Of a stretch of DNA of 64,000 bases, positions 2-10,152 are shown piece by piece. The stretch spans positions 150,866 to 214,865 of the forward strand of contig CACILT010000001.1 of the NCBI GenBank assembly GCA_902587565.1, read 5' to 3'. Numbering within the stretch: position 1 is the first letter of the stretch; each line of letters begins with the position of its first letter. The translations under genes and the position numbers were made by a program. The DNA comes from an uncultured Alphaproteobacteria bacterium (GTDB taxonomy: Bacteria > Pseudomonadota > Alphaproteobacteria > HIMB59 > GCA-002718135). Below the pieces are notes generated by a model. That model was not told the DNA's origin and did not search any database. It worked only from the letters and a program-made list of their open reading frames with translations.

Positions 2-364
2 CAGATTAGTATCTATAAAAATTAAACGTTTATTATCTATATCCTTAAAGTATTGAATAAATCCATTTGGATCGGTTTCAATATTAGGAAAGTTTATTTT
101 AAACTCATCTCTGTTATCATGATTACCTATAATTAGTTGAGGATTTAAATTCTTTGGCAGACCTGCTTCATCAATTATTTTTAAAAATAACTGATAAGAA
201 TCTTTATCACCTAAGTCTGTAATATCACCAGTGATGGCAAATAAATCTGCATCACCATGATTATTTTTTATATGAGTTAATGCTTTTTTAAATTTACTGA
301 CAGGATCTATGCCATGAATCTTATCTATATAAATATGAGGGTCTGAAAGGTGAATAATTTTCAT
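2..364 (-). CDS. Calcineurin-like metallophosphoesterase (CpdA/GpdQ type), truncated by window start
   Basis: Reverse-strand translation from the ATG at 364..362: MKIIHLSDPHIYIDKIHGIDPVSKFKKALTHIKNNHGDADLFAITGDITDLGDKDSYQLF...LIIGNHDNRDEF. Contains DPH, GDITD and GNHD metallophosphoesterase motifs. Not in the ORF track because it runs off the window. Confidence 0.85.
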   Translation of the reverse strand, partial: MKIIHLSDPHIYIDKIHGIDPVSKFKKALTHIKNNHGDADLFAITGDITDLGDKDSYQLFLKIIDEAGLPKNLNPQLIIGNHDNRDEFKINFPNIETDPNGFIQYFKDIDNKRLIFIDTNL

Positions 365-384
365 TATTAAATATAAATTTATAA

Positions 385-1017
385 TTAGATCGCAGTTTTA
401 AAATAAATATACTTATTAAATTCCTCTTTTAAGTCGATGCTAACTCTTGCATGTACTTTACCTTGTTTTCCTTGAAACGATTGTTTTTCTGTAACTGGAA
501 ACACCCCTTCATGCCAAATATTTGGATGAATATACAAACCTTTTGATCCGTCACAATAAAATGCTTTAAAATGTTCTGGTTCAATGTCGTCTGTAGGTAA
601 GGCTAAAGGACAAATAAATGGTTTATTTTCTTCAGGAAAGAAAAGCTGACCTCCATCAGGATGATAATTTGCATGCCATAAAAAAATTTTTGTTGGATCT
701 GAATATTTATCTTTTTGTAATTCTTGATCAGGATTATTGGCATAACCCAGTATATATTTTCCATCTACTTCATAATCGCTCTTATGTTGAACAGCATTAT
801 TTTGCCCATAAAGCACGTCACCTTGCCACCAGGTATCAAAAGAACCTTCGGTAGTTCCACCTTCATTACCAGTTCCCTCTTCTATGTCACGCCATCCTTG
901 TTTTGGCCAAGTAACAATTTCAATATCACTATTTTCAAAACTATCGATTAAATACCCATATCCTTTAAGATTTTCATTTGTTGCTTTAACTAAAGGTATT
1001 TCAATTTCTTTTGTCAT
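385..1017 (-). CDS. Ureidoglycolate lyase (AllA)-like cupin protein
   Basis: Resembles the AllA-type cupin family (IEIVTWPKQGWRDIEEGTGNEGGTTEG...WWQGDVLYGQNNAV). Sits directly downstream of phnW on the same strand. Confidence 0.6.
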   Translation of the reverse strand: MTKEIEIPLVKATNENLKGYGYLIDSFENSDIEIVTWPKQGWRDIEEGTGNEGGTTEGSFDTWWQGDVLYGQNNAVQHKSDYEVDGKYILGYANNPDQELQKDKYSDPTKIFLWHANYHPDGGQLFFPEENKPFICPLALPTDDIEPEHFKAFYCDGSKGLYIHPNIWHEGVFPVTEKQSFQGKQGKVHARVSIDLKEEFNKYIYFKTAI

Positions 1018-1024
1018 TGTTTTG

Positions 1025-2122
1025 TTAGTTTAATGTTAGTCCCAACTCAGTAACAACTTCTTTTACAGCTTTTATTGTATCCATCATGTCTTGTTCATTT
1101 AAATTACCAATACACCCAATTCTAAAAGTTTCTGCCACTGTTAGTTTTCCTGGATAAATTAAAAAATCTTTTTCACTAAGAGCATTATAAAATTGCTCAA
1201 AGTTAAATTTAGGATCATTAGGTTGTTTAAAAGTAATAATAATTGGTGCTTGTAAATTATCAGGAAGTAGTTGCTCAAATCCCAACTCTTTCATTCCATT
1301 ACAAATAATTTCACAATTTTTTTTATATCTTTTACCTCTTCCTTCTACACCGCCTTGTTCTTTATGTTCTTCAATAGCTTGGTTGAATGCAGCTAATACG
1401 TGTGTTGGAGGTGTAAATCGCCATTGTTTATTTTTTTCCATTGCTTGCCATTGATCATATAAGTCTAGACTTAGTGAGTGACTATTGCCTTTTGCATTTT
1501 GAATAACTTCATTTTTAACAAGAATGAAACCAACACCTGGCACACCTTCTAAGCATTTGTTTGATGAAGCGGCTACAGCATCAAAAGTAATTATTTTAGA
1601 ACTTAAGGGTAATGCACCAAAGGCACTCATTGCATCGATGAATAACGATAAATTTTTCCCTTCAACCAATTTTGCAATGTCTTCAATAGGATTTAAAATA
1701 CCCGATGTTGTTTCACAATATACGGCAAAGACGTGTGTTAAGCTGTTGCTATCAATTAACTCTTCAATTTTATTGATGTCATGAACTTCATGTTCAGCAA
1801 CTTCATATTCAATAAAATCTCTCCCTAAATATGTGCACATTTTTTTCATTCTTTGTCCGTAAGCACCATTGATCAGAATCAGAATTTTAGAATCTTTTTG
1901 AGTAAGAGAGCTCACCATCGACTCTACAGCAAAAGTTCCACTTCCCTGCATTGGAACACATTGATATTTATCTTCACCATCTATTAATTTAACAAGGGAA
2001 TCTCTAATTGATGCATTGAGATCAATAAATTTTGTATCTCTCGAACCCCAATCATGAAGCATAGCCTCTTTTGTTGACATCGATGTCGTGAGAGGTCCAG
2101 GGGTTAATAATTTTTTATCCAT
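1025..2122 (-). CDS. phnW: 2-aminoethylphosphonate--pyruvate transaminase
   Basis: LLTPGPLTTSMSTKEAMLHDWGSRD, QGSGTFAVES, ETTSGILNP, DAMSAFGALPL, ASSNKCLEGVPGVGF: characteristic PhnW motifs. Confidence 0.88.
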   Translation of the reverse strand: MDKKLLTPGPLTTSMSTKEAMLHDWGSRDTKFIDLNASIRDSLVKLIDGEDKYQCVPMQGSGTFAVESMVSSLTQKDSKILILINGAYGQRMKKMCTYLGRDFIEYEVAEHEVHDINKIEELIDSNSLTHVFAVYCETTSGILNPIEDIAKLVEGKNLSLFIDAMSAFGALPLSSKIITFDAVAASSNKCLEGVPGVGFILVKNEVIQNAKGNSHSLSLDLYDQWQAMEKNKQWRFTPPTHVLAAFNQAIEEHKEQGGVEGRGKRYKKNCEIICNGMKELGFEQLLPDNLQAPIIITFKQPNDPKFNFEQFYNALSEKDFLIYPGKLTVAETFRIGCIGNLNEQDMMDTIKAVKEVVTELGLTLN

Positions 2123-2210
2123 TAAATATTTACTTAATAAATATTATTATAAATTTGATCAATCTTATTAAAGTTGGAATTGAATTTATTTTCTAATAAG
2201 TTAATTATAA

Positions 2211-2786
2211 ATGAGAATGGAAGAAAATATTGTAGATTATCTCTTAGATCTTTTGAAAACAAAAGGTGCTGATATTCAATATGGTAATGAGGATGTGACT
2301 CAGCTTGAGCACGCACTCCAATGTGCTGAACTTGCTGAAAAACATAAATTACCAGGACCAACAATTGCTGCAGCATTACTGCATGATGTTGGCCACCTTA
2401 TTTATGAGGACGGCGATCCCATTCATGAAGGGAAAGATGGTCATCATGAAAACTTAGGTGCTGATTTTTTAAAAAAATATTTTGGTGAAGATGTTATTTT
2501 ACCAATAAGAGCACATGTTGATTCAAAAAGATATTTATCAAGTGTTGAAGAGGGTTATTATGATAGCCTATCAGAAGCATCGAAACTTTCGTTAAAAGTT
2601 CAAGGCGGTCCTTTCACAAAAGAAGAAGCAGATGCGTTTATAAGCAAACCTTTTATGGATGAGGCAGTAGAGCTTAGAAGATTTGATGATCTAGCAAAAA
2701 TTCTAGATAAAAAAACTCCCGATGTTGAACATTTTCGCCCCTATTTAGAAGAAGCAAGACAGTCTTTTTTAGCTAAACAAGCGTAA
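2211..2786 (+). CDS. phnZ: PhnZ-like HD-domain (mixed-valent diiron) oxygenase, phosphonate-operon-associated HDIG family
   Basis: YGNEDVTQLEHALQCAELAEKHKL...AALLHDVGHL...HHENLGADFLKKYF; HD motif plus the Y-x-x-E element of PhnZ-type oxygenases. Divergent from phnW. Start could also be 2217. Confidence 0.75.
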   Translation: MRMEENIVDYLLDLLKTKGADIQYGNEDVTQLEHALQCAELAEKHKLPGPTIAAALLHDVGHLIYEDGDPIHEGKDGHHENLGADFLKKYFGEDVILPIRAHVDSKRYLSSVEEGYYDSLSEASKLSLKVQGGPFTKEEADAFISKPFMDEAVELRRFDDLAKILDKKTPDVEHFRPYLEEARQSFLAKQA

Positions 2787-3311
2787 ATGCAATTTAGCAA
2801 TTATGATTTTATTGACTCTAAGTCATTTGCAGGAAAAATTATATTAACTTCTTTTCCAGGTCTTAACTCTAATGGTTTATTTGAAGAAACAATTTTAGCA
2901 AACGAATTAGAAATATTTAAAAATAATAATTGTAGTTCTATTACTTCTTTTGTTGAAGATAGCGAATTTGAAAAATTGTGTGATAAAACTTTGTTTGTCA
3001 AAAATATTTATGAACATAAATTACATTGGTACCATTTACCCATTTATGACATGGGAGCACCAGATAAAGATTTTAAATATAAATGGGAAACAACAAAAGT
3101 TTTATTAAAGAACGAATTGATAGATGGTAAAAACATAGTTTTACATTGCCGTGGAGGAAAAGGAAGAGCTGGCACTATAGCTGCTATTTTACTTGTTGAA
3201 TTTAATTATGAAAAACAAGAAGCTATTGATCTAGTACGATCAAGAAGAAAAGGAGCTATTGAGTCAAAAATCCAAGAAGATTTTATTTTTTCTTATCGAG
3301 CAGTTAATTAA
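2787..3311 (+). CDS. Dual-specificity/tyrosine protein phosphatase-like protein (CDKN3-like)
   Basis: Cx5R signature HCRGGKGRAGT; upstream YHLPIYDMGAPD general-acid loop. ATG immediately follows the phnZ stop. Confidence 0.75.
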   Translation: MQFSNYDFIDSKSFAGKIILTSFPGLNSNGLFEETILANELEIFKNNNCSSITSFVEDSEFEKLCDKTLFVKNIYEHKLHWYHLPIYDMGAPDKDFKYKWETTKVLLKNELIDGKNIVLHCRGGKGRAGTIAAILLVEFNYEKQEAIDLVRSRRKGAIESKIQEDFIFSYRAVN

Positions 3312-4360
3312 AAAGAGACCGTTAAATTAAAAATATTTTCTAGAATAAATAAAACAATTAAAGAAATTAAAGCTGCAATTATAGGTAGCGTCATCCAACC
3401 CAAAGAAATTCTACCTGCAATTGACCATTGAACCTCTTTTCCTCCTTTTAAAAGACCAATTCCAATTACGCCGCCGACAACAGCTTGGGAACTTGATACT
3501 GGTACCAAAGGTATAGAGGGAAGATTTATAGATTGTAAAAAAGCACTTATACCCTGGGATGCAAATAAAAATAAAACAATAGAATGCGATATAACAACAA
3601 TAAATGCTGCCACTGGTGTCATTTTTAAGAGATCATTACCCACGGTAAACATAACTCTTTTCGAGTAAGTAAAAACACCAACAGCTATTGCTAAACCACC
3701 CAGCAGAAATAATTGTTCTTTTGAGGAAAAGACAAATAAATTTCCAATAGTAACATCAGTAAACGGTGATATAGGTACGAAGACACCCATTACATTGGCA
3801 ATATTGTTTGCACCTAAACTATAAGCACCAAAAGCACCCGCTAAAAGTAAAGCTGTTCTTGTATAGGCATCAAGTCTGAGAATATGTAACTTTCTATTGA
3901 GTATAACTCTTTTTGTAAAAGTAAATAAACCCATTGCAATAACTCCTGCAATGATAGGACAGAGTATCCATGTTCCTAAAATAGTAATTAAAACTTGAAG
4001 ATTAGTTGAAGATCCCGTGTATAAATTCCAACCAACAATTGCTCCAACGATCGCTTGCGTTGTAGAAACAGGCAAGCCAACTTTGGTCATTAAATAAACG
4101 GATATGCCTGCAGCCACACATGCTGCAAAGGCACCAGGTAATGCATTAATAGCACCTAACTTACCTAAAGTTTCTGTTGTTCCTGCTCCACTAATAATTG
4201 CACCTAGAATAACAAAGACACTACAAATAATTGCTGCACTTGTGAAACTAACCATTCGTGTTCCAACAGCAGTTCCAAAAACATTTGCTGCATCATTGGC
4301 GCCAAGTGACCAACCTAAAAAAAGACCACCAAATAAAAAAATTAGAATTGTAATTTCCAT
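3308..4360 (-). CDS. pit: PiT family low-affinity inorganic phosphate transporter
   Basis: Duplicated GANDAANVFGT / GANNIANVMGV motifs and many hydrophobic segments. Confidence 0.9.
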   Translation of the reverse strand: MEITILIFLFGGLFLGWSLGANDAANVFGTAVGTRMVSFTSAAIICSVFVILGAIISGAGTTETLGKLGAINALPGAFAACVAAGISVYLMTKVGLPVSTTQAIVGAIVGWNLYTGSSTNLQVLITILGTWILCPIIAGVIAMGLFTFTKRVILNRKLHILRLDAYTRTALLLAGAFGAYSLGANNIANVMGVFVPISPFTDVTIGNLFVFSSKEQLFLLGGLAIAVGVFTYSKRVMFTVGNDLLKMTPVAAFIVVISHSIVLFLFASQGISAFLQSINLPSIPLVPVSSSQAVVGGVIGIGLLKGGKEVQWSIAGRISLGWMTLPIIAALISLIVLFILENIFNLTVSF

Positions 4361-4366
4361 TGAAAA

Positions 4367-5029
4367 TTAAACGGAGCGTTTAATAGCGTAAATTTGAACC
4401 TCGTCAGCTATGTCTTCTGCTTGATCACAAATACGATCAATCTTTTCTACAAAATATCGAAGATGCATTTTTTGATCTAGAGGTAATTCAGAATCAAAAA
4501 TTCTTCTTGCAAGTGAACTAAATTTTATATCAGATTCTTTTTCATAAAAAGTTACTTTATGAGCATTATCTCTAACAGATTTAATATCTCTAAAAAATGA
4601 TCGGACAGTCAAACAAAGTGACTCAACACAATTTACAACAGTCTCTGTTAACTCAATAAGATCTTCATGAAATTCTTTTGGAAAATTAGGTTTTTGAATA
4701 GAGAAGTGATAGCAATTTCCTTGGTACATTCCAATTAATTCGTCGATGTGTTCTAGAAGTCGTAACACATCACTTCTTGCATCTGGGATTAGTGTTTCTT
4801 CATAAAGAGTATGCTCAACATCTTTTGTAATTTTGTCGGCCTTACTTTCCATTTCTTTAACTTTTTCAACCATTTCCTCAAATTTACCATTGGCGGAATG
4901 ATTGAGATAAGTTGGAACTATCGATTTAAATACTAAGCCCACTTCAGAGACAATATCAACAAACTCATCAATTTCTCTTTCAAGCTTTTTGGTATCACCA
5001 AATAATGATGCACTTTTTAATCCAAACAT
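4367..5029 (-). CDS. DUF47/PhoU-like Pit accessory protein
   Basis: PhoU-like helical repeat sequence (FGLKSASLFGDTKKLEREIDEFVDIVSE...); directly upstream of pit in the same operon. Confidence 0.85.
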   Translation of the reverse strand: MFGLKSASLFGDTKKLEREIDEFVDIVSEVGLVFKSIVPTYLNHSANGKFEEMVEKVKEMESKADKITKDVEHTLYEETLIPDARSDVLRLLEHIDELIGMYQGNCYHFSIQKPNFPKEFHEDLIELTETVVNCVESLCLTVRSFFRDIKSVRDNAHKVTFYEKESDIKFSSLARRIFDSELPLDQKMHLRYFVEKIDRICDQAEDIADEVQIYAIKRSV

Positions 5030-5069
5030 GGCGTGCTTATAGAACTTTTCAAAAAAAAAGAAAGAAATG

Positions 5070-5088
5070 TTAAATTTTTGTTACAATT
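5070..5088 (-). promoter_or_regulatory. Candidate Pho box upstream of the DUF47-pit operon
   Basis: Reverse complement AATTGTAACAAAAATTTAA, identical to the phoB-upstream element; 41 nt upstream of the DUF47 start at 5029. Confidence 0.6.
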
Positions 5089-5152
5089 TGATTAATATCT
5101 TTATCTTTAAGTAAAGTGTAATATTCGCAATATATAGAATTTAGGAGAAGAT

Positions 5153-5380
5153 ATGACAGATTTATCAATTAATAGAATTAAGTGGTTTAGCACCGCGTTA
5201 ATTTTATCAGGAATATTATTAACCAATTTAAATGCGTATCCAATTAACATAATTATTCACGGTACAGGTGCTGTTGGTTGGTCAATTGTTGGTTATATGA
5301 CAAAAGATAGAGCTCTGCTCACAAACTTTGGTTTACAACTCCCACTATTTATTTTTGGATATATTTATTTGCTGACATGA
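5153..5380 (+). CDS. Small two/three-TM membrane protein (DUF6552-like)
   Basis: 75 aa hydrophobic ORF after the AGGAGAAG ribosome-binding site at about 5142. Stop overlaps the next gene's ATG. Confidence 0.6.
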   Translation: MTDLSINRIKWFSTALILSGILLTNLNAYPINIIIHGTGAVGWSIVGYMTKDRALLTNFGLQLPLFIFGYIYLLT

Positions 5381-5796
5381 AAAATAAAAATATTCTTTTT
5401 ATGTGTGTTGCTAATTCAGCAAGAAGTCAAATGGCTGAAGGAATTGCAAAAAAATTATATCCTAATTGTATTATTCAAAGTGCAGGATCAGTGCCCAAAG
5501 AAGTTAATCCCAATGCTATCGAGGTTATGGGTGAAATCGATATTGATATATCAAAACATTATTCAAAAGATTTTGAAAGTTTAGACAAAAAATTTAGAGA
5601 TGAATTAAATACCGTTTTTACGCTTTGTAAAGAAGAGGTATGTCCAGTTTTAAATTCCAAAGCTCAGATATTTTCAATACCATTTGATGATCCAGCATCA
5701 GATCATTTTAGTTCAAACCAATTAGATAAATTTAGAGAAGTAAGAGACTCAATTTTTATTAAATTGAAAGAACTAAAAAATTTATTTGAAAACTAA
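5377..5796 (+). CDS. arsC: Arsenate reductase, LMW-PTP/thioredoxin type
   Basis: ILFMCVANSARSQMAEGIAKKLYP P-loop (CxxNSxRSQMAEG) and FTLCKEEVCP with the resolving cysteines. Confidence 0.85.
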   Translation: MKNKNILFMCVANSARSQMAEGIAKKLYPNCIIQSAGSVPKEVNPNAIEVMGEIDIDISKHYSKDFESLDKKFRDELNTVFTLCKEEVCPVLNSKAQIFSIPFDDPASDHFSSNQLDKFREVRDSIFIKLKELKNLFEN

Positions 5797-5936
5797 TAAA
5801 TTTAAATATTAGTTTAATTTATAAAAATTTAATATTCTATTAATACGTCTGTAAAAAATAAAATTTAAATACTTTTTACCACTCACAGTATTATTTCTTC
5901 CTGCTTATGTCCAATTATTGTGAGTGGGATTAAATT

Positions 5937-8042
5937 CTATTTTCCAATTTTTAAATTAGACTTAGCTCTAGATTTAAGTTTTGCTGAACCCCTCCCAGAC
6001 AAGCTTGGATTTTTGATAAAAAAATTGTGAGAGGAAAATTTTTTCTCTTTGCTTGATATTTCTTTTTTCTGATAATTGCCATTACTTAACATTTGCCAAG
6101 AATTTGTATTATCTGTCATACTGGCAATTAAGATCTGATTTAATATTTGTTCATGTACAGTTTCATTTTCAATAGGAATAAATGTTTCAACCCGCCTATC
6201 TAGATTTCTTTGCATTAAATCGGCAGAAGAAATAAACAAGATATTTTTTCTATGAGGGAATTTATGACCGTTATAAAAACAATATATTCTCGTATGTTCT
6301 AAAAAACGACCAATTATACTTTTAACAACTATATTTTCCGATAGATTTTCTTTACCAGGTATTAGAGAGCAAATTCCTCTTATTAACAATTCAATTTTTA
6401 CATTTTTTTGAGATGCTTTATAAAATTCATCAATAATTTGTTTATCAACAAGAGAATTACACTTACAAACTATTCCAGATGGTTTATTTTTTCCAGCATT
6501 TGTAATTTCATTTCTAATTAGTTCATTTAATTTGTTTCTTGCAGTTATTGGAGAATATACTATTTTTTTTATTGTGGTTGGTTCTGAATAACTAGTTAAA
6601 TAATTAAACATTTTTGCAGCATCATTTGTTAATGTTTTGTCACAGGTGAAGTAAGATAAATCCATATAAACTCTTGCATTTCTCGGGTGATAATTACCTG
6701 TTCCATAATGTGCGTAATTTACAACAGAATTCATTTGCTTCCTTGTTACAAGTGTAATTTTTGCATGAGTTTTCATATCAATATTGCCAAAAACAACTTG
6801 CGCTCCAGCTAATTCTAATTCTTTTGCCCATTTTAAGTTACGCTCTTCATCAAAACGTGCTTGCAACTCTATAATGACAGTTACTAATTTTCCTTTTTGT
6901 GCTGCTCTAACTAAACTTGCTTCTATTGGTGAGTCATCAGTAGTTCGATATAAAGTATGTTTTATTGATAAGACTTTTGGATCATCTGCAGCTTGATCAA
7001 TAAACTGAGTCACTACTTCAAAAGATTCAAAAGGGTGATGAATAACAATATCTTTATTTGCTATAGCTTTAAAATAATCATTTTTAAAATCTTTAATTCT
7101 TTCAGGAAACCGTACCTTAAATTTTGGAAAAAATAATTTTTTAAAATCTTTCAAGAAAATTGACTCTATACTCGAAAGATTAACGGGTATTGGCAGTTTA
7201 TATGTATTTACATCCTTATAGTTAAGTTTTTTATTTATGAATTTAATTAAGTGACTAGATATACTTTCATCAAAATCAATTCTTATTACCTCTTGTCTTC
7301 TTCTCTCAAAAATAGCTTTTTGAAATACTAAAAATAAATCTTCTCCTTCACCTCCTAATTCTAATTCACTATTCCTAATTGGTCTAAAAACACCTTTATC
7401 CAAAACCCTATCACACTGGAAAATTTCTTTTAAAGAAATAAGTAGGGCTGTCTCCATAGATACAAAACGTGTTTTTTTACCAGGTAATTTAATAAATTTT
7501 TCTAATCCCTCTGGCACTCTCAGTATTCCATAAAAAGTTTTTTTATTATTTATTAAACGACATACTAAGGTTGTTTCTTTATTTGGTATAAAAGGAAATG
7601 GGTGAGATGGATCAATAATAATTGGCGTTAAAACCCCCCAATTATTTTCTTCTAAATAATTTTTAATAAATGTTTTATCTTTTGTTTTCAGTGTTTTTTC
7701 TACATCTATATGGATTTTGTTTTCTGAAAGCTCTCTTAGTAAATCTATCCATATTGATTTTATATTTGAAATCATCTTCGATGTTTCTTTATCTATCAGC
7801 TTGAGTTGTTGTTGTGGTGTTAATCCATCAAAACTTTTATTTCGTGAAAATTTTTGAACATTCAATCCTGCTACTCTAACCATAAAAAATTCATCTAAAT
7901 TAGAGAATGCTATTGATAAAAATCTAACCCTTTCTAAAAGTGGAATTTTACTATCAGATGTCTGACTTAAGACTCTTTCATTGAATTTTAGCCAAGACAA
8001 TTCCCTGTTTGCATAGTTATAAGCAGTATTTTTTTTTAACAT
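5937..8042 (-). CDS. ppk: Polyphosphate kinase 1
   Basis: YANRELSWLKFNERVL..., NLDEFFMVRVAGL, HHPFESFEVVTQFIDQAADDPKVLSIKHTLYRT, IPIENETVHEQIL. Confidence 0.95.
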   Translation of the reverse strand: MLKKNTAYNYANRELSWLKFNERVLSQTSDSKIPLLERVRFLSIAFSNLDEFFMVRVAGLNVQKFSRNKSFDGLTPQQQLKLIDKETSKMISNIKSIWIDLLRELSENKIHIDVEKTLKTKDKTFIKNYLEENNWGVLTPIIIDPSHPFPFIPNKETTLVCRLINNKKTFYGILRVPEGLEKFIKLPGKKTRFVSMETALLISLKEIFQCDRVLDKGVFRPIRNSELELGGEGEDLFLVFQKAIFERRRQEVIRIDFDESISSHLIKFINKKLNYKDVNTYKLPIPVNLSSIESIFLKDFKKLFFPKFKVRFPERIKDFKNDYFKAIANKDIVIHHPFESFEVVTQFIDQAADDPKVLSIKHTLYRTTDDSPIEASLVRAAQKGKLVTVIIELQARFDEERNLKWAKELELAGAQVVFGNIDMKTHAKITLVTRKQMNSVVNYAHYGTGNYHPRNARVYMDLSYFTCDKTLTNDAAKMFNYLTSYSEPTTIKKIVYSPITARNKLNELIRNEITNAGKNKPSGIVCKCNSLVDKQIIDEFYKASQKNVKIELLIRGICSLIPGKENLSENIVVKSIIGRFLEHTRIYCFYNGHKFPHRKNILFISSADLMQRNLDRRVETFIPIENETVHEQILNQILIASMTDNTNSWQMLSNGNYQKKEISSKEKKFSSHNFFIKNPSLSGRGSAKLKSRAKSNLKIGK

Positions 8043-8102
8043 AATTTTTTTTTATATTTTTTAGGTATAAAAAAAACATGTTCATAAAAAATTCATATTT
8101 CT

Positions 8103-8561
8103 TTAATAATTTTTATTTTTTGGTTTTAAAATTTTATCAATAATCCAGTTTTTTTTAAAGGATATTATAGCAAAAGCACAGGTTGGAAAATGTTCAATAT
8201 TTGAATTACATAAAATATTAATTGAATCTATCAAACTAGGGTTGTGTCCAATGATAAGAGTATTTTTTTTTAATTTTTTAATTTTGCTTACAAGTATATT
8301 TGGTGGGCATTCATAAATATCGTTATCAATTGTAAATTTTACTGAGCGATCAAATGAATTAGAAATTATATCATATGTGCTAGTTGTTCTTTTAGAAGGA
8401 GAACATATTATCTGACCAATTTGAAATTTTCTTTTATCTAATATTTTAGAAAATTGTTTTGCGTTTCTCACACCTCTTTTATTCAGTGGCCTATCAATGT
8501 CATCAAGTTCTAAATTATCCCAACTAGATTTGGCGTGACGTAATAAATAGACTTGTAGCAT
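8103..8561 (-). CDS. sixA: SixA-type histidine phosphatase
   Basis: LLRHAKSSWDN (RHA/RHG phosphatase motif), IIGHNPSL. Confidence 0.85.
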   Translation of the reverse strand: MLQVYLLRHAKSSWDNLELDDIDRPLNKRGVRNAKQFSKILDKRKFQIGQIICSPSKRTTSTYDIISNSFDRSVKFTIDNDIYECPPNILVSKIKKLKKNTLIIGHNPSLIDSINILCNSNIEHFPTCAFAIISFKKNWIIDKILKPKNKNY

Positions 8562-8593
8562 TCGAGTTTAATACTTTAGATGTATACATTTCC

Positions 8594-9499
8594 ATGGCTA
8601 AAAAGAAAAATAAAAATCCCATAACAGTGATTGATCTAGGCTCTAACACATTTAGACTAGTTATATATGCGCAAGCTATTCATCCTTTTCCAATACTTTA
8701 TCAAAAAAGAGAATTCTTAAAATTAGGTGAAAGTATTAAAATAGGTAAACTCCCATCGATAAAAATAAAAGAAGCTATAAAATGCTTAGAAGAATATATT
8801 AAGATTGCAAAAGATTATGAGTCCTTAGATATTCATATAATTGCAACGGCCGCAATTCGTGAAACAATAAATGGAAAAGAAATTATTGAACCTTTCAAGA
8901 AAAAAAAGTCAGTTAGAGTAGAAGTGCTCTCACCAAAAAATGAAGCTAAATGCGGATCTCTAGGTGTAATTAGTTCAATAAAAAATCCAATCGGTTTAGT
9001 TGCTGACTTGGGAGGTGGAAGTTTAGAACTTAGTACTATAAAAAATGAAAACATACTTGAAACTAAAAGTTTAAAAATTGGCATCTTAAGAAGTGAATCT
9101 GAGATGTACAAAACTACTAAAATTAAATTTGGTAATTTTTTATTTTCTAAATTTAAAAACCAATCTCTTAAATTTTCTAAAAACGTAGGAAATATTTATG
9201 TTATTGGAGGCATGTGGCGCAACCTTGCAAAACTTCATTTGCACCTAAATGGAATCAAGAAAAATAAATTACATGGGTACATGATACCATTTTCAGAGTT
9301 AGAAATATTTTATCACAAATTATACTCTATGGAAAAAAAACAAATTCAAAAATTGAATGTTGTCCAACCCAATCGATTAGATAAATTAAAATTATCTACA
9401 TATATTTTATTTAGCCTTGCTTCATTTTATAACATTAAAAATATTATTTTTGTAAGATATGGAATCCGTGAAGGCTACTTGTACGATATGTTGAACTAA
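8594..9499 (+). CDS. ppx: Exopolyphosphatase/GppA family
   Basis: VIDLGSNTFRLVIY, ATAAIRE, DLGGGSLEL. Short form (301 aa) without the C-terminal HD region. Confidence 0.88.
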   Translation: MAKKKNKNPITVIDLGSNTFRLVIYAQAIHPFPILYQKREFLKLGESIKIGKLPSIKIKEAIKCLEEYIKIAKDYESLDIHIIATAAIRETINGKEIIEPFKKKKSVRVEVLSPKNEAKCGSLGVISSIKNPIGLVADLGGGSLELSTIKNENILETKSLKIGILRSESEMYKTTKIKFGNFLFSKFKNQSLKFSKNVGNIYVIGGMWRNLAKLHLHLNGIKKNKLHGYMIPFSELEIFYHKLYSMEKKQIQKLNVVQPNRLDKLKLSTYILFSLASFYNIKNIIFVRYGIREGYLYDMLN

Positions 9500-10152
9500 T
9501 TTTTAAAAAACAATCTAACAATAAATGTAGCAATAAGAGCACCAATAATCTGAGCTAAAATAAAACCTAGAACACTTGATGGACTTATTCCACTAAAACT
9601 ATCTGTAAACATTCTTCCTATGGTTACTGCTGGATTTGCAAAACTTGTTGATGAAGTAAACCAATATCCTGCGGTAATAAATAGAGCTACACCAATAGCA
9701 ATTCTTTCCTTGTTTACCTCTTTTAATATAAAAATAGTTAATAATAATCCAACAGTTGCAATTATTTCTGAAAAGAATTTAAATACACCAACTCTTTCAT
9801 TGAGTGACCATTCAATTATAGGATATTCAAAATACCAATTTGCAGTTAAACAACCAAATATACCAGCAATAATCTGAGTAAAAATAAAAATTATTCCGTA
9901 ATTAATAGGAATATTTTTTTGGATAATATCACTTAATACAACAGCAGGATTAAAGTACGCTCCTGAGATATTAATAAACATAGAAATAATTACATATAAA
10001 ATGGCACCTGTTGCGATAGTGTTTCCTAGTAATATTATACCAAGGTCATTTGACATTAACTCTCCCATAATTCCACTACCTACAACTGTTAGTACAAGAA
10101 AATATGTCCCAATAAATTCTGCTAGTATTTTTTGTCTTAAAGAAAATGTCAC
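9496..10152 (-). CDS. MIP/aquaporin family channel, AqpS-like (arsenic-associated subgroup)
   Basis: SGAYFNPAV and SFANPAVTIGRMFTDSFSGISPSSVLGFILAQIIGA: two NPA motifs. Confidence 0.8.
   Translation of the reverse strand: MTFSLRQKILAEFIGTYFLVLTVVGSGIMGELMSNDLGIILLGNTIATGAILYVIISMFINISGAYFNPAVVLSDIIQKNIPINYGIIFIFTQIIAGIFGCLTANWYFEYPIIEWSLNERVGVFKFFSEIIATVGLLLTIFILKEVNKERIAIGVALFITAGYWFTSSTSFANPAVTIGRMFTDSFSGISPSSVLGFILAQIIGALIATFIVRLFFKN

Follow-up and report, generated by a model that had tools for sequence, protein, structure and literature searches.

Introduction

No natural phosphonate is more common than 2-aminoethylphosphonate (AEP), which serves as a source of phosphorus in the sea. 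In a small open-ocean alphaproteobacterium of the AEGEAN-169/HIMB59 type, we analysed a 64,000-nucleotide stretch of one contig (hereafter the window and contig C1). At the left edge of the window, a transaminase gene, phnW, and a gene for a PhnZ-type oxygenase diverge from each other, and a cupin gene follows phnW. Two questions arise from this locus: by which route is phosphate released from AEP, and what does the cupin contribute? The original prediction, made from the sequence of the window, held that the usual partner genes are absent from the visible locus, and suggested that they might lie just left of the window or that the cupin might perform a new step.

An AEP island with a phnZ side branch

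The features of the locus, with the evidence for each, are as follows.

2..364, minus strand: metallophosphoesterase (MPE), partial at the window edge (ORF, PF00149)
385..1017, minus strand: AllA-like cupin, 210 aa (ORF, PF04115 over part of the model)
1025..2122, minus strand: phnW, 2-aminoethylphosphonate--pyruvate transaminase (exceeds three equivalog cut-offs)
2123..2210, no strand: presumed promoter region, the 88 nt that separate the start of phnW from that of the divergent phnZ (coordinates)
2211..2786, plus strand: phnZ-type HD-domain phosphonate oxygenase (profile score, HD motifs)
2787..3311, plus strand: DSP-type (PTP-SAK) phosphatase, directly 3' of phnZ (ORF, family match, HCRGGKGR)
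C1:142972-144213, same contig, left of the window: phnA (TIGR02335, 465 bits above a cut-off of 408)
C1:144210-145652, same contig, left of the window: phnY (TIGR03250, 799 bits above a cut-off of 636)

Open reading frames and family matches agree on the five window genes and their places. The genes are tightly packed, with gaps of 7 nt between phnW and the cupin gene, 20 nt between the cupin and MPE genes, and 0 nt between phnZ and the phosphatase gene. Extension of the sequence leftward revealed phnA and phnY 5.2-7.9 kb from base 1, in an operon that points toward the phnW operon. The expectation of partners just left of the window was thus borne out, while the statement that no PhnA/PhnY aldehyde route is present was incorrect. 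A locus without a route for C-P cleavage can be ruled out because phnA and phnY are there.

The genes for PhnW (PRK13479, 510 bits against a cut-off of 296; TIGR03301, 463 against 361), PhnY and PhnA lie within about 10 kb, each above its NCBIfam equivalog cut-off. Judged from families of known reaction, PhnW would convert AEP to phosphonoacetaldehyde (PAA), PhnY would oxidise PAA to phosphonoacetate, and PhnA would split phosphonoacetate into acetate and phosphate. Profile searches of the host genome, which is 70% complete and bounds every absence call accordingly, returned no PhnX and no PbfA above cut-off and no named match to PhnY*, as had been predicted for the visible locus. None of the seven PhyH genes checked as PhnY* candidates in this genome matched a named phosphonate model. 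Neither phnX nor phnY*, whose adjacency had been named beforehand as evidence against the prediction, was found beside the locus.

The PhnZ-type oxygenase scores slightly below the TIGR03276 cut-off (201 against 214.6 bits) and below those of TmpB (157 against 300) and PhnZ1 (153 against 300). It keeps the HD di-iron ligand motifs seen in 4mlm and 6npa, and the Y..E..QLEH stretch of PhnZ, the QLEH part of which resembles 4mlm. By family, it is predicted to convert R-1-hydroxy-2-AEP to glycine and phosphate. The claim that no PhnY*/TmpA-type hydroxylase feeds this enzyme holds for the neighbourhood, as no dedicated hydroxylase gene is adjacent to phnZ. Elsewhere in the genome, a single unlinked TauD-family gene has TmpA as its top model (315 bits, below the cut-off of 400). 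R-1-hydroxy-2-AEP could come from uptake or from an unlinked hydroxylase, and use of the ready-made compound by PhnZ fits the literature (PMC8154272).

The genes thus make up a phnWYA island for AEP to which phnZ adds a side branch, an arrangement that has already been published. phnZ is found in 24 of 75 phnWAY clusters (PMC8154272 Table 1) and is frequently paired with phnA, and phpC occurs in some AEP operons (PMC9381506). As in those clusters, phnW, phnY, phnA, phnZ and a gene for a Phn Fe-alcohol dehydrogenase stand together. Unlike them, the island adds the phnW-coupled cupin, the DSP phosphatase (motif HCx5R), which most loci from the genus have 3' of phnZ, and three proteins that resemble, in turn, UgpB (a binding protein), core-MetE and a methyltransferase. 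It also adds the MPE, a class III phosphodiesterase whose full gene (C1:150441-151229, 262 aa) has a GpdQ-type phosphohydrolase and Rv0805 as its nearest PDB sequences. In the available portion of PMC11366302, the hydrolytic AEP pathway is reported for over 85% of members of the AEGEAN169 Ca. Indicimonas clade, a host type and pathway like those described here, and that portion mentions neither a cupin nor phnZ.

The cupin follows AEP genes across genomes

We recorded the presence and absence of the cupin in 386 alphaproteobacterial genomes. It occurs in 19 of the 35 genomes that have both phnW and phnZ-family genes, and becomes rare with phnW only (2/49; G308 and G366), with phnZ-family genes only (3/53) and with neither (1/249). 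With its own genus excluded, the Fisher p values are 1e-10 for phnW and 2e-11 for the phnZ family; at the level of families they are 7e-5, 2e-7 and, for both together, 2e-8, kinship being corrected to this level only and genome size left uncorrected. Genomes with true AllA only do not display the association (8/26 and 10/26). The cupin is tied to phnW and phnZ/tmpAB in 13 alphaproteobacterial families besides its own. PbfA, which is known to produce PAA from R-hydroxy-AEP, is present in 7 of the 24 genomes that carry the cupin and in 11 of the 56 phnW genomes that lack it, which weakens the idea of the cupin as a simple PbfA substitute.

Gene order points the same way. A contig scan covered the best 80 of 580 related loci, mostly from one genus and with the named distant relatives outside it. 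Of the 73 loci with enough flank, 72 have phnW immediately 5' of the cupin gene and in the same orientation. Within the genus it is phnW, not phnZ, to which the cupin is coupled, and the pair survives rearrangement, being followed by phnYA in locus L177 and by phnX in L174 and L178. Replacement of a PAA-processing step by the cupin can be ruled out, since it keeps phnW whichever of these comes next. In genome G149, the genes tmpA, tmpB and cupin stand in this order and overlap, and in several cupin genomes tmpA adjoins phnZ/tmpB.

The majority of the distant cupins have no phn gene next to them, and many are solitary. In several genomes they diverge from regulators that best match phn_lysR. 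One group adjoins choline-sulfatase, and the gammaproteobacterial loci L170 and L176 have the cupin without phnW nearby, the L176 copy being in a polyol locus. These neighbourhoods at first looked unrelated to phosphonates, and the link emerged only from the genome-wide presence/absence data.

Co-occurrence and adjacency, together with the phn_lysR-type regulators, strengthen one part of the proposal of a new step, namely that the cupin probably belongs to the AEP pathway. We consider it likely that these genes form the right-hand part of a full island for AEP catabolism, with the cupin as a phnW-coupled accessory enzyme of aminophosphonate breakdown.

What the cupin may do

The cupin passes the PF04115 gathering score (39.9 bits against a cut-off of 23) over only 64 of the 162 model positions, and its best fold match is AllA, which together place it in the ureidoglycolate lyase fold superfamily; the cupin epimerases RmlC and DdahB are among much weaker matches. 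It shares the cupin fold and the HPxGxQxF and WH motifs with ureidoglycolate lyase AllA (1xsq, 1yqc, 2bdr), from which it differs by an N-terminal part that is about 50 residues longer and contains a conserved WPxxGxR...TGxxGG loop. By analogy, we tentatively suggest an AllA-like C-N lyase whose substrate would be AEP in a hydroxylated or N-substituted form, with PAA and an amine as products. On this basis it might found an undescribed family of aminophosphonate-catabolism enzymes that in Pseudomonadota is linked to either phnW or tmpAB, amine-releasing and PAA-forming, a metal-poor counterpart of PbfA, though we regard this as rather unlikely.

Equally tentative is a general role, such as scavenging of reactive aldehyde adducts or a sugar/polyol reaction on a phosphonate-carrying ligand, with mere co-regulation with AEP catabolism. 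The solitary distant copies and those near choline-sulfatase or polyol genes agree with it, and AllA acts on a carbinolamine, so that an aldehyde-amine adduct of PAA is a conceivable substrate. The near absence of the cupin where phnW and phnZ-family genes are both missing speaks against such generality.

The lyase reading competes less closely with an isomerase or racemase that, as PbfF does, supplies the R-specific PhnZ/TmpB, for example from S- to R-1-hydroxy-2-AEP. The association peaks where phnW and a phnZ-family gene co-occur, and the G149 arrangement and the epimerase fold matches are consistent with this activity. We nevertheless find it improbable: G308 and G366 carry the cupin and phnW without a phnZ-family gene, the genus couples it to phnW, and its fold is far closer to AllA.

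A hydroxylase that replaces PhnY* and makes 1-hydroxy-2-AEP would account for a PhnZ without neighbouring PhnY*/TmpA, and some enzymes with a cupin fold, HEPD and HppE among them, do act on phosphonates. However, every one of the 22 aligned family sequences has N117-x-H119-x4-Q124 where the canonical HxHx4E metal triad belongs, and in sequence the 2-His-1-Glu site of Fe(II) phosphonate cupins (HEPD, HppE, MPnS type) is not found. An Fe(II) oxygenase role is therefore disfavoured; moreover, TmpA already supplies the hydroxylase in G149 and adjoins phnZ/tmpB elsewhere, making this reading very unlikely.

Although AllA is the top named family and fold, an ordinary ureidoglycolate lyase present here by chance is ruled out almost entirely by a score of 33 bits against the NCBIfam AllA equivalog cut-off of 230, by the 100/100 split, on a very long branch, of 26 cupins from 4 AllA sequences, and by a second, full-length AllA-like gene that the host carries elsewhere, next to those for allantoicase and OHCU decarboxylase. 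Grouping with true AllA near purine genes, which the original prediction had named as evidence against it, was thus not observed; the cupin forms its own clade in a phosphonate context.

Significance

The accessory enzymes PbfA, PbfB/C/D and PbfF are PLP, FAD and NAD enzymes (PMC8154272, PMC10590968, PMC12366243), papers in which the word "cupin" does not occur. Like the cupin gene, theirs are optional genes that recur in AEP clusters, and they funnel AEP relatives into the pathway; unlike the candidate here, none is a cupin. We found no description of the phnW-linked cupin in the papers examined, and the Pfam match would name it ureidoglycolate lyase, a misleading label. The gene set for phosphate release from AEP is already known in type, and the sole novelty of the island is the uncharacterised cupin, probably an undescribed helper enzyme. 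As the Pbf enzymes were all discovered through similar genome-context signals, the AllA-like cupin is a concrete candidate for the next AEP accessory enzyme.

Gene content of the phosphonate island

The five open reading frames at the left edge of the window lie where the original prediction placed them, and every family name is backed by family search. Gaps of 7 and 20 nt separate the minus-strand genes, the HD oxygenase and DSP phosphatase genes abut, and 88 nt divide the divergent units, so two small divergent operons are a fair reading of the coordinates. The features below are located on contig CACILT010000001.1 (C1), in the window (C1:150866-214865), or in L003, the DNA spanning the window's left edge (window position = L003 position minus 18866).

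Genes of the phosphonate island (window 2-3311 by ORF call and family search).
C1:142972-144213, plus strand, phnA (TIGR02335, 465 > 408 bits)
C1:144210-145652, plus strand, phnY (TIGR03250, 799 > 636 bits)
L003:13791-17328, plus strand, cassette 3' of phnY: UgpB-like binding protein, core-MetE-like protein, then phosphonate-type iron alcohol dehydrogenase (TIGR03405, 363 bits vs 424)
L003:17331-18437 (C1:149330-150436), plus strand, methyltransferase-like protein of 368 aa, no named family
Window 2-364 (whole gene L003:18442-19230), minus strand, metallophosphoesterase (MPE)
Window 385-1017, minus strand, AllA-like cupin
Window 1025-2122, minus strand, phnW
Window 2211-2786, plus strand, HD oxygenase (PhnZ-type)
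Window 2787-3311, plus strand, DSP phosphatase
Window 3308-10152, PiT transporter, DUF47 partner, LMW phosphatase/ArsC-like protein, polyphosphate kinase, SixA-like phosphatase, Ppx/GppA (exopolyphosphatase), aquaporin

The claim that PhnA and PhnY are missing was a window-edge effect, because both genes, scoring over their cut-offs, sit just left of base 1 in the same island. They open a plus-strand operon (phnA, phnY, UgpB-like, core-MetE-like, iron alcohol dehydrogenase, methyltransferase-like) that converges on the MPE-cupin-phnW operon, with ugpC-ugpA-ugpE-like ABC transporter genes divergent from phnA. One island thus holds a complete phnW-phnY-phnA route. The methyltransferase-like gene belongs to this operon almost throughout the genus, and the three-gene cassette between it and phnY is variably present. 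In most members of the genus the DSP phosphatase gene comes after phnZ.

The reported lack of PhnX and PbfA at the locus was borne out, with no match over cut-off for either in this 1.2-Mb, 70% complete genome. None of its seven PhyH genes matched the named phosphonate enzymes. One of two TauD-type genes matched TmpA best (315 bits vs a cut-off of 400) and is unlinked to the island, without phosphonate neighbours.

In profile search the HD oxygenase falls in the Phn-HD family, slightly below cut-off. It can be aligned throughout with the structures of PhnZ (4mlm) and TmpB (6npa), retains the HD ligands, and has the QLEH stretch of PhnZ where TmpB has MAEH. The phnWYA plus phnZ combination is already known, since such clusters have been published: phnZ homologues occur in 15/1,186 phnWX and 24/75 phnWAY clusters, never alongside pbfA, and were interpreted as serving disposal of R-hydroxy-AEP (AEP, 2-aminoethylphosphonate; PMC8154272); in a GORG-Tropics screen phnZ was often paired with phnA, and phpC lay within some AEP operons (PMC9381506); and more than 85% of Ca. 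Indicimonas, which is one of the two clades of AEGEAN169, are reported to have the hydrolytic pathway for AEP (PMC11366302). Judging by their names, related records (AG-series single-cell genomes, MarineAlpha5) appear to be of AEGEAN-169/HIMB59 type.

The cupin is distinct from AllA

Pfam and fold search (structure model pLDDT 82) both name AllA (ureidoglycolate lyase) for the 210-aa cupin. The cupin nevertheless falls outside the AllA clade: all 26 cupin family members separate from four AllA sequences on a very long branch with 100/100 support, and the cupin scores 33 bits against 230 for the AllA equivalog models. A different contig of the genome carries an AllA-like gene next to those for allantoicase and OHCU decarboxylase. 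It is also under the equivalog cut-offs (136 bits vs 230); PF04115 (125 bits) and these neighbours suggest that it is AllA. The cupin shares HPxGxQxF and WH motifs with AllA. Particular to the cupin is an extended N-terminal region in which WPxxGxR is invariant and a TGxxGG loop is conserved; this loop (residues 38-53) is disordered in the model and could be a substrate lid. Where a canonical cupin has its metal triad HxHx4E, this protein has N117-x-H119-x4-Q124, which makes an iron oxygenase improbable.

The word cupin is absent from three Pbf papers (PMC8154272, PMC10590968, PMC12366243), and the one paper in the searched collection that mentions both 'cupin' and '2-aminoethylphosphonate' deals with pirins; novelty is provisional, as subscription journals and supplements lay outside this search.

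The cupin is associated with phnW and PhnZ-family genes

The cupin occurs in most sampled same-genus relatives and was not found in the order's other sampled family. Among the best 80 of 580 loci, 73 named-record loci had enough upstream sequence; in 72 of these, close relatives representing few independent events, phnW lies immediately upstream on the same strand. Of the 73, 54 show PhnA and PhnY and 68 show PhnZ. The phnW-cupin pair survives rearrangement of the remaining genes. Locus L177 reads AEP permease (PhnU2)-FAD oxidase-kinase-phnW-cupin, then phnA-phnY, and L178 and L174, from bins whose organism labels look unreliable, read phnW-cupin-phnX. Since the pair is constant with either phnA-phnY or phnX following, the cupin's link is with phnW rather than with the route by which phosphonoacetaldehyde (PAA) is used. 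A PiT-DUF47 pair also adjoins phnX in L174. Two gammaproteobacterial loci (L170, L176) carry the cupin with phnW absent nearby.

Across a sample of 386 alphaproteobacterial genomes screened for the cupin, PhnW and the PhnZ family, 25 had strong cupin matches (2 of its own genus and 23 across 13 further families). The cupin was present in 19/35 genomes having both PhnW and PhnZ family, 2/49 with PhnW only, 3/53 with PhnZ family only and 1/249 with neither. With its own genus removed, Fisher tests gave p values of 1e-10 (PhnW) and 2e-11 (PhnZ family), and with each family counted once 7e-5, 2e-7 and, for both together, 2e-8; these values include no phylogenetic model or control for genome size, and large genomes hold more of everything. 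The association is not general to AllA-like genes, because genomes with true AllA only show 8/26 and 10/26. PhnX is rare among cupin genomes (2/24), and PbfA exceeds its cut-off in 7/24, so cupin and PbfA are not mutually exclusive.

In the distant cupin genomes, those phnW genes that were checked belong to phnW-phnA-phnY operons accompanied by a phn_lysR-like regulator. A TmpA-type hydroxylase gene usually precedes the phnZ-family gene (4/4 scanned copies over the TmpA cut-off), and in one such genome (G149, locus L076) tmpA, tmpB and the cupin gene overlap at their ends. In six distant loci (L077, L080, L082, L083, L084, L087) the cupin is divergent from a LysR gene; five of these LysR genes were scanned, and each had phn_lysR as its top match, at 259-269 bits where the cut-off is 341 (a comparator linked to phnWAY reached 329), the sixth, in L082, being assigned through similarity grouping only. 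A conserved gene adjoins the cupin in L082, L083 and L084 (three genomes, one family); the copy in L083 exceeds the cut-off of TIGR03417, at 627 bits, and so encodes choline-sulfatase. At L225, TmpA-like genes (58% and 35% identity to other TmpA copies) flank a phnZ-family gene on both sides.

Proposed role

Genes, order, co-occurrence and clade are established by computation. The cupin quite probably belongs to an aminophosphonate pathway. From family knowledge, PhnW would convert AEP to PAA, PhnY PAA to phosphonoacetate, PhnA phosphonoacetate to acetate and phosphate, and PhnZ R-hydroxy-AEP to glycine and phosphate. For the cupin's own step the leading suggestion, tentative and with a minor share of the probability, is a lyase: AllA-like acid-base chemistry might free the amine from hydroxylated or N-substituted AEP. 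PAA released by such a lyase would join the PhnW product, whichever enzyme comes next. The main rivals of this reading are a racemase that would supply PhnZ and a role that is general or one of adduct repair.

The closest PDB structures to the MPE are Rv0805 and 2zo9/2dxl/3d03, the latter entered as 'phosphohydrolase', which we take to be the glycerophosphodiesterase GpdQ. As this GpdQ/Rv0805-like MPE shares the island with a UgpB-like binding protein and a Ugp-like transporter, a reasonable guess is that the island serves uptake and cleavage of glycerol-AEP esters (phosphonolipid head groups); the right-hand PiT-DUF47, polyphosphate kinase and exopolyphosphatase genes are in keeping with handling of the released phosphate.
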